DNA from: an uncultured Bacteroides sp.
GTDB taxonomy: Bacteria > Bacteroidota > Bacteroidia > Bacteroidales > Bacteroidaceae
Length of the DNA: 47,554 bases
Reading direction: 5' to 3'
NCBI GenBank assembly: GCA_944322335.1
Contig: CALUOU010000012.1
Location: 1-47,554, forward strand
The stretch's first letter is position 1. Each line of letters begins with the position of its first letter. Below, in pieces: positions 101 through 34,250 of the stretch. The notes beneath the pieces are model-generated. The model was not told the DNA's origin, did no database searches, and saw only the letters and a list, made by a program, of their open reading frames with translations. Both the position numbers and the translations under genes were made by a program.

Positions 101-315
101 TAGGGTCAGTCCGAAAAGTCGGTTGCAAGGTAGGTGGAAGAAGTAGGTTGATCATCGGGACAAAATCCTGTCCGGGCTTTTTTTCAGCAGCATAGGTTAC
201 TTGCCAAAGTATTATTGCTGCGTTGGCCATTTTATCTTGCTTCGATGGCCAAGTATTATTGCTGCGTTGGCCAAGTATCCAATAATGCCTTGCAACCGGG
301 TTTTCGGACTGATCC
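101..315 (-). repeat. MITE-like dispersed repeat, copy 1
   Basis: A 215-bp non-coding element whose homologue lies in opposite orientation at 34039-34250; most positions match when one is reverse-complemented. Its ends are imperfect inverted repeats of about 31 bp (26 of 31 positions pair), sharing cores TCAGTCCGAAAA and CGGTTGCAAGG. Internally there are three tandem units built on TGGCCAACGCAGCAA (one reads TGGCCATCGAAGCAA). No transposase is encoded. The short frame through it codes nothing recognisable. No clear target duplication flanks this copy. Confidence 0.75.
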
Positions 316-15627: not shown

Positions 15628-15715
15628 TTTTTTTATTCCTTTCTTTTTCCGATGCGAAGTTAGTGATTTTTTTGAAAAAGCGGCCTTTTCCGATCCAACG
15701 GCTTCTAAAAAACAG

Positions 15716-15723
15716 TAATTTTG
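15716..15723 (+). promoter_or_regulatory. Bacteroidetes -7 element for the GNAT-nitrilase gene
   Basis: TAATTTTG followed by CGCC, 32 bases before the ATG at 15756. It lies inside the longer open frame that begins at 15663, which argues for the 15756 start. Confidence 0.6.
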
Positions 15724-15755
15724 CGCCGTTTTTTCAAACCCAAAGACAAAACCAT

Positions 15756-17291
15756 ATGGATTCGATCAAAATCAATAAAGTGCAGATACGCAATCTGCAA
15801 ATTGAGGACTACGACCAGCTGGCCCAGTCCTTCACACGCGTCTACACCGACGGAAGCGACGTGTTTTGGACACACAAGCAAATCGAAAAACTCATCAGCA
15901 TCTTCCCCGAAGGACAGATCGTGACCGTAGTTGACGGCAAAATCGTCGGATGCGCCCTTTCCATCATCGTCAACTATGACGATGTGAAGAATGACCACAC
16001 CTACGCCCAAGTCACTGGCAAGGAAACGTTCAACACCCACAACCCCCAAGGCAACATCCTCTACGGCATCGAGGTGTTCATCCATCCCCAGTACCGAGGT
16101 CTTCGCCTGGCCCGGCGCATGTATGACTACCGCAAAGAGCTCTGCGAGAAGCTCAACCTGAAGGCCATCATGTTCGGCGGACGCATTCCCAACTACCACA
16201 AATACGCCGACCAAATGCGCCCTAAGGAATACATCGACAAAGTCCGCCAGAAAGAAATTTACGACCCGGTGCTGACGTTCCAGTTATCCAACGATTTCCA
16301 CGTGCGCAAGGTAATGCGCAACTACCTGCCCAACGATGAAGAGTCCAAACACTACGCTTGCCTCCTGCAATGGGACAACATCTATTATCAGCCCCCCACA
16401 CAGGAGTATGTCTCCCCAAAGACCACCGTCCGCGTGGGACTAGTGCAATGGCAAATGCGTACCTACAAGACCGTTGACGACCTGTTCGAGCAGGTAGAGT
16501 TCTTTGTGGACGCCGTTTCTGACTATAAGAGCGATTTCGTGCTTTTCCCTGAGTATTTCAACGCCCCCCTCATGGCACGTTTCAACAACGAGGCGGAGTC
16601 GGAAGCCATCCGCGGGCTGGCCGCTTACACCGATGACATCCGCGAACGGTTCATCAAGCTGGCCATCAGCTACAACATCAACATCATCACAGGCAGCATG
16701 CCGCTCATCAAGGAAGACGGGCGCCTCTACAACGTAGGATTCCTCTGCCGACGGGACGGTACCTATGAGATGTATGAGAAAATACATGTCACCCCCGATG
16801 AAATCAAAAGCTGGGGGCTGAGCGGCGGACGATCCATCCAGACATTTGACACGGATTGCGCCAAGATCGGCGTACTGATCTGCTACGATGTGGAGTTCCC
16901 CGAACTTTCACGCATCATGGCCGACCAAGGAATGCAAATTCTGTTTGTCCCCTTCCTCACCGACACTCAGAACGCTTACAGCCGTGTGAGGGTGTGCGCC
17001 CACGCGCGAGCCATCGAAAACGAGTGCTTCGTGGCGATTGCGGGCAGTGTGGGCAACCTTCCCCGTGTGCACAACATGGACATACAATATGCGCAATCGG
17101 GCGTGTTCACTCCCTGCGACTTCGCTTTCCCCACCGACGGCCGACGCGCAGAAGCCACACCGAACACAGAGATGATCCTCGTTTCTGATGTCGACCTGGA
17201 TCTCCTCAATGAATTGCACACCTACGGCAGCGTGCGCAACCTGAAAGACCGCCGCAATGACCTCTATGAGGTGAAAATGAAAAACAAATAA
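15756..17291 (+). CDS. GNAT acetyltransferase fused to a carbon-nitrogen hydrolase
   Basis: A two-domain enzyme of 511 residues. The N-terminal part (about 1-215) is a GNAT-like domain with the acyl-CoA segment HPQYRGLRLARRMYDYR. The C-terminal part (about 225-500) is a nitrilase-superfamily domain with the full Glu-Lys-Cys triad: E266 (FPEYFN), K342 (YEKIHVTP) and C376 (LICYDVEFPEL). The fusion occurs widely in Bacteroidetes, but its substrate is not established to my knowledge; the two halves could act in turn on one amide or amine. The start follows a promoter element; a longer frame from 15663 is rejected. Confidence 0.92.
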   Translation: MDSIKINKVQIRNLQIEDYDQLAQSFTRVYTDGSDVFWTHKQIEKLISIFPEGQIVTVVDGKIVGCALSIIVNYDDVKNDHTYAQVTGKETFNTHNPQGNILYGIEVFIHPQYRGLRLARRMYDYRKELCEKLNLKAIMFGGRIPNYHKYADQMRPKEYIDKVRQKEIYDPVLTFQLSNDFHVRKVMRNYLPNDEESKHYACLLQWDNIYYQPPTQEYVSPKTTVRVGLVQWQMRTYKTVDDLFEQVEFFVDAVSDYKSDFVLFPEYFNAPLMARFNNEAESEAIRGLAAYTDDIRERFIKLAISYNINIITGSMPLIKEDGRLYNVGFLCRRDGTYEMYEKIHVTPDEIKSWGLSGGRSIQTFDTDCAKIGVLICYDVEFPELSRIMADQGMQILFVPFLTDTQNAYSRVRVCAHARAIENECFVAIAGSVGNLPRVHNMDIQYAQSGVFTPCDFAFPTDGRRAEATPNTEMILVSDVDLDLLNELHTYGSVRNLKDRRNDLYEVKMKNK

Positions 17292-17343: not shown

Positions 17344-17503
17344 TTATAAGTAAAACGGCCGCTCTTTCCCCATCCGACTCCCGTTTCTTAGCCAGATGCA
17401 AAAACCATAAATATCGCAAATTCAAATTTCGGAAGTGCCCGATTCATCTTGAACGGCAAGAACTCTGTATGTGGAAATCTAAAGGCACAGGGTAATATAG
17501 ACA

Positions 17504-17591
17504 TTGCACATACGTATGCAAGACTTTGCATGTGCTTATGCAAAGCTTTGCACAAATGGATGCAAGATCTTGCACAAGCGTATGCAAAACA
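17504..17591. repeat. four-unit array of 22-bp palindromic repeats (TTGCA-N8-TGCAA)
   Basis: Four consecutive 22-base units start at 17504, 17526, 17548 and 17570, with no slippage in period. Every unit begins TTGCA and has ATGCAA at unit positions 13-18; the first is TTGCACATACGTATGCAA. Eleven of 22 columns are invariant. The junctions are also palindromic: TGCAAAGCTTTGCA and TGCAAGATCTTGCA are perfect, TGCAAGACTTTGCA nearly so. A period of 22 is not a multiple of three, so it is not coding. It sits between the 3' ends of two convergent genes; nothing else is seen in this 310-base gap besides the hairpin at 17304. Confidence 0.9.
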
Positions 17592-17601
17592 GTTATAACG
17601 G

Positions 17602-18021
17602 TCAAAGTTCGGAAACCACTGTCGCGACTATACTCCGCTCGCCTCCATAGTCACGAAACTCGCAAAGATAAATGCCCTGCCATGTACCCAAATTGAGCCT
17701 TCCGTCCGTAATGGGAATAGTCAGGCTCACTCCGAATAGAGAGCATTTGGCATGGGCAGGCATATCGTCAGCCCCCTCCAAAGTATGGAGGTAATAAGGT
17801 TCGTTCTCCCTTACCAGCCGATTCAATATTCTTTCCATGTCTCCCCGGACATCAGGATCCGCATTTTCATTGACAGATAAGGCGCAGGAGGTGTGCTGCA
17901 CAAACAAATGGAGGAGCCCCACCTTCGGCAAAGGACGGGGCAGATGTGACAATATCTCTCCAGTCACCAAGTGGCAGCCACGCCGCTTAGCGCTCAAACG
18001 AAAGGAAGTCTGTGAAATCAT
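17602..18021 (-). CDS. yjbQ: YjbQ/UPF0047-family protein
   Basis: A 139-residue cytoplasmic protein of the YjbQ family. Family hallmarks are visible: FVQHTSCALSVNENAD, the metal-associated DDMPAH and GTWQGIYLCEFRD near the end. Members show weak thiamine-phosphate synthase activity in E. coli and are often annotated as secondary thiamine-phosphate synthase, but the true role is uncertain. A -7 element lies at 18055-18062. It stands alone, transcribed towards the repeat array. Confidence 0.9.
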   Translation of the reverse strand: MISQTSFRLSAKRRGCHLVTGEILSHLPRPLPKVGLLHLFVQHTSCALSVNENADPDVRGDMERILNRLVRENEPYYLHTLEGADDMPAHAKCSLFGVSLTIPITDGRLNLGTWQGIYLCEFRDYGGERSIVATVVSEL

Positions 18022-34038: not shown

Positions 34039-34250
34039 GGATCAGACGGAAAATACGGTTGCGAAGCATTATTGGATACTTGGCCAACGAAGCAATAATA
34101 CTTGGCCAACGAAGCAAGATTAAATGGCCAACGAAGCAATAATACTTTGGCAAGTAACCTATGCTGCTGAAAAAAGCCCAGACAGGATTTTGTCTCAATG
34201 ATCAACCTACTTCCAGCTACCTTGCAACCGTCTTTTCAGGCTGAACCCTA
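34039..34250 (+). repeat. MITE-like dispersed repeat, copy 2
   Basis: Second copy, opposite in orientation to 101-315. Three tandem 22-base units start at 34081, 34103 and 34125, each beginning TGGCCAACGAAGCAA; the ends pair imperfectly (GGATCAG/CTGAACC plus CGGTTGC/GCAACCG cores). CTAATTTT occurs directly on both sides (34031-34038 and 34248-34255) and could be a target duplication, though copy 1 has CTACTTTT at the same end, so it may belong to the element. It lies between convergent genes. Confidence 0.75.

Follow-up and report, generated by a model that had tools for sequence, protein, structure and literature searches.

A periodic palindromic array between convergent genes of a Bacteroides genome, a candidate multi-site target for DUF6078-type proteins

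The window analysed here is a single stretch of 47,554 nucleotides from an uncultured Bacteroides sp. Between two of its genes lies a short array of the palindromic unit TTGCA-N8-TGCAA. The earlier note on this DNA had described four exact units in 22-bp steps without drift, and this is what we find at 17504-17587. The array and its surroundings are composed as follows:

15663..17291, + strand: neighbouring gene, GNAT + carbon-nitrogen hydrolase; its 3' end is 213 bp from the array
17480..17503, - strand: opposite common flank, approximately CACCTGTGTCACACTGTGTCTT on the - strand
17504..17587, - strand: whole array, four 18-bp palindromic TTGCA-N8-TGCAA units with a 22-bp period
17504..17521, no strand: unit a, TTGCACATACGTATGCAA, exact match
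17526..17543, no strand: unit b, TTGCATGTGCTTATGCAA, exact match
17548..17565, no strand: unit c, TTGCACAAATGGATGCAA, exact match
17570..17587, no strand: unit d, TTGCACAAGCGTATGCAA, exact match
17588..17607, - strand: flank common to most arrays of the genome, approximately TTGACCGTCATAACCGTT on the - strand
17602..18021, - strand: neighbouring gene, UPF0047 (PF01894); its 3' end is 15 bp from the array

The two genes are neighbours of the array and not parts of it. Their ends at 17291 (+) and 17602 (-) confirm the convergent setting that had been described, and the flank at 17588..17607 overlaps the stop codon of the UPF0047 gene. The minus strand given for the array is the orientation common to the other arrays of this genome. 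Shuffles of the window contained a mean of 0.08 units, and none of 100 reached four. Two details of the earlier description require adjustment: the start of the array was placed correctly, but its core stops at 17587 and not at 17591; and of the three junctions said to form a second palindromic register, two (TGCAAAGCTTTGCA and TGCAAGATCTTGCA) are perfect 14-bp palindromes while the third, TGCAAGACTTTGCA, is not palindromic. The rejection of a CRISPR holds, as the period is 22 bp with inner spacers of 8 bases and outer spacers of 4, an arrangement distinct from constant repeats separated by unique spacers of like length.

The array had been presented as a lone oddity, a view that did not survive a search of the genome and of the genus: it belongs to a genus-wide system whose architecture recurs with other half-sites. 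Within its own genome, exact TTGCA-N8-TGCAA units number 83 per strand and the reversed pattern 1; most of the units sit in arrays, and a few occur singly. In total, 24 array loci were found, a count to which further, more degenerate arrays may have to be added. Nineteen of them consist of four units; the others have five (one locus), three (three loci) or two (one locus). Among the short ones, one three-unit array lies at a contig start and the two-unit array at a contig end. When placed in the common orientation, most arrays have the same short flanks on both sides. Nineteen of the 24 were used for the analyses of flanks, identity and covariation. In all 19, which have four units each, positions 3-5 and 14-16 of the unit are invariant, and mean pairwise identity is 0.95 in the half-sites, 0.62 in the inner eight bases and 0.61 in the four-base junctions, a contrast that is partly built in because the arrays were located via the half-site; in the flanks it is 0.48 and 0.44.

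After exclusion of the two loci at contig ends, the gene setting was determined for the remaining 22. Four arrays lie between convergent genes, nine between tandem genes, six between divergent genes and three at edges; the convergent setting seen in the window is thus no rule for this class. Only 4 of the 22 lie within 40 bp of a stop codon, so that a 3' bias is absent, although the gene caller behind these counts missed the UPF0047 gene beside the window array, whose 3' distance is therefore wrong in them. Subsets of the arrays have flanks of 33-163 bp in common. For example, L045, L049 and L061 (G000 C1, C8 and C50) are TTGCA arrays with longer common left flanks of 95-118 bp; L045 and L049 additionally have a common right flank of 112 bp, and L061 is cut off at a contig end. 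A 16/18 inverted repeat surrounds the array of L049.

Outside this genome, the exact two-unit motif was found in 0 of 40 relatives, literally the absence that had been named in advance as counting against the pattern; the architecture is nevertheless common in the genus with other half-sites. Allowing up to two mismatches, the two-unit TTGCA motif was present in 20 of 158 genus genomes (own genome included) and its reversed control in 2 of 158, so that some single two-mismatch matches may be chance. True four-unit TTGCA-like arrays with different inner letters were found in the genomes G135, G136, G004 and G007. In named genomes, a three-unit search returned six stretches, two of them from Parabacteroides and one each from a Bacteroides, a Prevotella, a Prevotellaceae and a Firmicutes record. 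Fourteen further TTGCA-like arrays from other genomes comprised 3 in convergent, 7 in tandem and 4 in divergent settings, and 5 of them had a stop codon no more than 40 bp away.

In G135, G136 and Parabacteroides sp. An277, a TTGCA array lies behind a gene of the family PF19555 (DUF6078), and such a gene is missing from five of the six loci of the three-unit search. DUF6078 genes were detected in 126 of 158 genomes of the genus, with up to 13 genes per genome, and in 4 of 296 genomes sampled across the phylum, three of the four being from this genus. We scanned 600 bp on each side of DUF6078 genes for tandem periods of 14 to 40, using no motif. The 94 loci taken, which were the better-scoring of the listed profile matches plus L079, L083, L094 and L103 and hence not a random sample, were reduced to 89 by dropping two duplicates (L189, L159) and three loci with less than 300 bp downstream (L118, L123, L191). 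Downstream of the gene, an array was detected at z>=6 in 77 of 89 cases, with a period of 22 (70) or 23 (7); excluding three loci that had been entered through their arrays, the count is 74 of 86. One further gene had a downstream period of 15. Upstream, a period of 22 or 23 reached z>=6 within 600 bp in 0 of 89; other periods appeared at two loci, and L171 reaches z 5.6 at period 22. The maximum z among 445 shuffles was 5.5.

The arrays behind DUF6078 genes start at a median of 46.5 bp past the stop codon. Thirty-one of the 77 have five units, 27 have four and 19 some other number, counts that are approximate since the register is off by half a unit in some (e.g. L094) and three arrays scored 0. 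The window array has the features of this type, namely a 22/23-bp period and about four palindromic units. A 22/23-bp array was not detected behind 12 of the 89 genes. Eleven array-less genes (L104-L107, L110-L112, L117, L153, L188 and L192), several of which are among the best PF19555 matches, perhaps form a subgroup working without an array.

The pairing of gene and array extends beyond this sample. Nine DUF6078 genes were examined later: those of two phage records and four plasmids, one from an additional Bacteroides, and two from G452, which belongs to another genus. A 22-bp array was clear behind seven of them; the remaining two, on a second P. distasonis plasmid and on a Treponema plasmid, had their peak at 22 but stayed below threshold (z 5.6 and 4.7, respectively). 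The array of the phage record MT835733 is close to those of sampled Bacteroides loci and hence not independent. DUF6078 matches were found in five phage records and four plasmids, of which two phage records and all four plasmids were scanned. Among 17 DUF6078 genes from seven genus genomes (3 seen before), 15 had an array at z>=6.6, one reached 5.6 and one had none. In G136, five DUF6078 genes (L194, L201, L206, L208 and L210) each have a different half-site behind them, L206 with z 5.6. A viral origin was also considered: one viral contig matched the two-unit pattern, yet no array passed the four-unit listing threshold. A scan of that pattern-matching locus detected no DUF6078, an alignment search of viral contigs with DUF6078 found no relative, and two single-protein searches gave one 22-residue match and none, respectively. 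PADLOC and PHROGs returned no match for 20 DUF6078 members.

The weak point of the pairing lies in the window's own genome. One DUF6078 gene was detected there (C185); the contig that carries it is 3.1 kb long, and the array behind the gene is of the TTACC..GGTAA form, with about six units. A search with TTGCA-type proteins found no second, TTGCA-type DUF6078 gene in this assembly, which is 88.67% complete. Because of this incompleteness, and because one contig begins inside a TTGCA array without the usual flank (L044), the partner of the window array may lie in an assembly gap; it may also have been lost.

The one-sidedness of the pairing bears on whether such arrays are ordinary promoter operators of a transcription factor. 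Palindromic multi-operator arrays are typical of regulators, and 6 of the 22 arrays in the window's genome, together with 4 of the 14 other TTGCA-like arrays, do lie between divergent genes. However, arrays beside DUF6078 genes were downstream in 77 of 89 and upstream in 0 of 89 at the same threshold, the arrays of the TGCCA class described below are divergent in 1 of 20, and the window array sits behind two genes. We therefore regard control of a promoter as a decidedly poor candidate for their function.

The half-site TGCCA defines the second class that we followed across genomes. Its two-unit pattern with one mismatch was found in 59 of 158 genomes, with up to 65 matches per strand, while the reversed control had no match in any genome listed. 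These arrays were present in 56 of 126 genomes with DUF6078 and in 3 of 32 without a detected DUF6078 (G103, G105 and G107; p=1.7e-4, the species not being independent). In G004, a TGCCA-class array lies behind the single DUF6078 gene, and the dispersed TTGCA-like arrays there are therefore mixed forms of that class. Twenty TGCCA arrays were taken from five genomes, those listed first in the pattern search: sixteen have four units, three have five and one has three. Fifteen of the 20 have a stop codon no more than 40 bp away. Nine are convergent, ten tandem and one divergent, compared with 2, 14 and 7 for the other gaps of the same loci. A rule that arrays always lie between convergent genes is thus partly true for the TGCCA class and fails for the class of the window. 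The idea that an array substitutes for a terminator was rejected, with 2 of 21 against 4 of 51 and 0 of 5 against 3 of 39 showing no difference, few terminators being detected overall.

Eight of these twenty arrays make up four orthologous pairs between species and allow constraint to be compared along the unit. The earlier note had suggested selection on the half-sites, and in the four pairs half-sites are identical at 141 of 160 positions against 38 of 96 in the inner spacer, with 50 of 72 in the junctions; this bears the suggestion out, though in part by construction, as the arrays were found by the half-site pattern and units were paired by index (the register of L221/L226 may be off). For gene-adjacent arrays, which were found without a motif, identity was 0.85 in array-conserved columns against 0.66 in variable ones, over 71 ordered and overlapping pairs.

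Dispersed palindromes of this kind could be mobile. In a REP/REPIN-like reading, the arrays are non-autonomous miniature elements which DUF6078 maintains or moves, as RAYT does for REPs. Dispersed intergenic copies with a partner gene beside a like repeat are what REP/REPIN-RAYT systems display. Arrays of the TGCCA class lie mostly at 3' ends, a placement comparable to that described for REPs in PMC3733652, and the subset-shared flanks in the window's genome, with the inverted repeat at L049, point the same way. Against this, the H-hydrophobic-H motif of HuH tyrosine transposases was found in 0 of 80 DUF6078 proteins, and neither a GTAG nor a CGTC tag occurs on either strand of 17494-17600 around the window array. 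In addition, flanking inverted repeats are at chance level at the other 21 of 22 loci, which also disposes of a MITE with terminal repeats; the window's own class lacks the 3' bias; and in the four array pairs, which come from two pairs of species, position is retained although the spacers have changed. Mobility is thus an unlikely explanation, and for the window array it is not needed.

As a structured RNA, an option that the earlier note had allowed, the array would be transcribed and act as a hairpin (a 3' UTR element, small RNA or processing site). Both strands of the window array give good folds (z -3.4 and -4.9), and on the minus strand the fold is one long hairpin in which unit 1 pairs with 4 and 2 with 3; such folding is as expected from a run of palindromes. 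Covariation, however, was absent from the 19 arrays of the genome: 84.3% of cells pair, compared with 85.0% when the 3' letters are dealt among sequences, 471 of 500 shuffles had a covariation score at least as high, and halves from different arrays pair as well as halves of the same array. Among 110 TGCCA-type units, 0 of 15 half-site changes were compensated, a weak result since 0.5 would be expected by chance, and in the 76 units of the own arrays positions 1/18 are C-A 11 times and C-G never. Rfam gave 0 matches at gathering threshold in the window, and matches to miRNA families (E 0.04-0.9) were far below threshold. As pairing is no better than after exchange and changes go uncompensated, recognition as DNA is the better reading, and we consider a structured RNA very improbable.

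What protein would recognise this DNA is suggested by the variety of half-sites behind DUF6078 genes, which include GTTTC/GAAAC, TGCCA/TGGCA, TTGCA or CTGCA, TTTAC/GTAAA, TTCTC/GAGAA, TCCC/GGGA and TTACC/GGTAA. By eye, each half-site class tends to pair with one form of a C-terminal segment around conserved tyrosines, a segment which we take to resemble the recognition helix of Xre proteins. The invariance and profile analyses used 80 of 92 proteins. Ten of the 80 have weak matches to PF20432 (Xre-like-HTH; best E 1.4e-4), while an unrelated EGF family matches 7 of the same 80. Nine positions are invariant, four of which are cysteines (80/80) in the N-terminal half, which suggests a metal or iron-sulfur site. 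A structure model from a single sequence had a mean pLDDT of 41, too poor for a fold search.

We asked how well 12-residue windows of the protein predict the half-site, using only neighbours with less than 40% identity elsewhere (44 proteins). The helix window ranked first of all windows, scoring 0.41 where the median window scored 0.16 and the rest of the protein 0.23; it had been fixed before the test, but after being viewed beside the half-sites. With neighbour limits of 35% and 45% identity, the helix did no better than the rest (0.16 vs 0.16 and 0.43 vs 0.51). Proteins without a distant neighbour of the same class were omitted, leaving 44 to 55 depending on the identity limit. Half-site class also tracks protein clade: the partial r is 0.36 for the protein outside the helix and 0.26 for the helix itself, after five of 77 loci without a class and then near-identical proteins (72 to 56) had been removed. 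The prediction result is thus support, not proof, that the helix segment would encode the half-site class.

The arrays, their period and dispersal, the one-sided pairing with genes, the link between protein type and half-site and the lack of RNA covariation support the reading of the window array as a protein site that the earlier note had offered. We propose that it is probably a DNA target with several sites for a DNA-binding protein of the DUF6078 type. Physical binding of DUF6078 at the arrays, as dimers and with cooperativity, is what we infer: each 18-bp unit would be the site of one dimer, and the 22-bp steps, close to two helical turns, would place the four dimers on one face of the DNA, where cooperative binding is possible. 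A DUF6078 gene would typically have one array just past its stop codon, with arrays of the same class in intergenic DNA elsewhere, and paralogues would differ in the Xre-like recognition helix together with the paired half-site. Array and protein would function as operator arrays do, or in the manner of REP palindromes and their partner gene, though here the protein lacks the HuH motif. More loosely, we conjecture that a bound stretch may act between transcription units, as a boundary or nucleoprotein block, and that the array behind its own gene may provide feedback on DUF6078 output.

The same complexes might instead organise the chromosome, with DUF6078 bridging or condensing DNA at the arrays as partition-type sites; matS and parS are the systems for comparison. 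The many dispersed arrays of other species (up to 65 two-unit matches per strand), with several operators per site, would suit such a role. Yet there are up to 13 DUF6078 genes per genome, sites differ between paralogues (five in G136), and the family is absent from 32 of 158 genomes, which makes an essential housekeeping role unlikely. We doubt this alternative about as much as mobility; it is compatible with a multi-dimer DUF6078 target, from which it differs only in what the complex does.

Comparison with known systems places the arrays near several of them. Iterons of plasmid replicons likewise have a period of about 22 bp and few copies beside the gene of the binding protein; here, however, the units are palindromic and are dispersed in the chromosome too. 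Xre/Cro-type proteins with operator arrays are similar in the helix segment (..YYxxxRxGE.xP), in the weak PF20432 matches and in palindromic sites two turns apart, whereas DUF6078 has a four-cysteine N-terminal half, belongs to PF19555 and has its array behind the gene rather than in the promoter. REP/REPIN-RAYT systems (REPtrons) share with the arrays short dispersed intergenic palindromes, by stop codons in the TGCCA class, and a repeat beside a partner gene; they are unlike them in that here the period is fixed at 22 bp, units mostly number four or five, the half-site varies between genes, the protein lacks the HuH motif, the array lies only behind the gene, and the window array has no GTAG/CGTC.

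BrickBuilt, a minisatellite-MITE of Porphyromonas gingivalis, was considered because some of its ends have TTTGCA, letters similar to those of the window array; it too consists of short tandem repeats dispersed in intergenic DNA of a Bacteroidales species. PMC4596501 gives 19 copies in ATCC 33277, a 23-nt unit (AGAYCATARTATCCTCTCRTRTG) in 1 to 22.8 repeats, and IS5-like terminal inverted repeats (GAGACCTTTGCA/TGCAAAGGTCTC). The unit sequence, the variable unit number and the ends all misfit, and the candidate was dropped. The repeat AGAYCATARTATCCTCTCRTRTG has 0 matches in the window at up to 3 mismatches; the ends GAGACCTTTGCA/TGCAAAGGTCTC, at up to 2 mismatches, have 4 in the window, none near the array, with 4.57 expected.

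In the open-licence literature searched, no paper names DUF6078 or PF19555, and nothing fitting was found on such repeats in Bacteroides among the listed matches. Sequence-specific DNA binding would be a first testable role for a family found in 126 of 158 genus genomes, and for most members it would predict a binding site from the DNA behind their gene. If this is right, nature has supplied helices matched with operators that could yield a recognition code, and intergenic sites form a layer spanning the genome in an important genus of the gut. We suggest, tentatively and with less than even confidence, that DUF6078 and its arrays may compose an undescribed, diversifying DNA-recognition system of Bacteroidales, in which each gene has its own address array behind it, the address is written in the helix and intergenic arrays across the chromosome serve as nucleoprotein boundary nodes.

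Other repeats of similar period were seen in passing. L069, L073 and L074 (from G045, G066 and G074) are direct-type 22-bp repeats with CTATATAT cores, a different motif. The window itself holds two copies, at 34040-34235 (+) and 115-314 (-), of a repeat element of about 196 bp that contains 3.3 units of a different 22-bp tandem repeat. This element has 50 BLAST matches in the genome, about a dozen of them nearly full-length at 90-95% identity, and many copies lie at contig ends; at L060 (G000:C38:1-282), a copy directly adjoins a TTGCA array.
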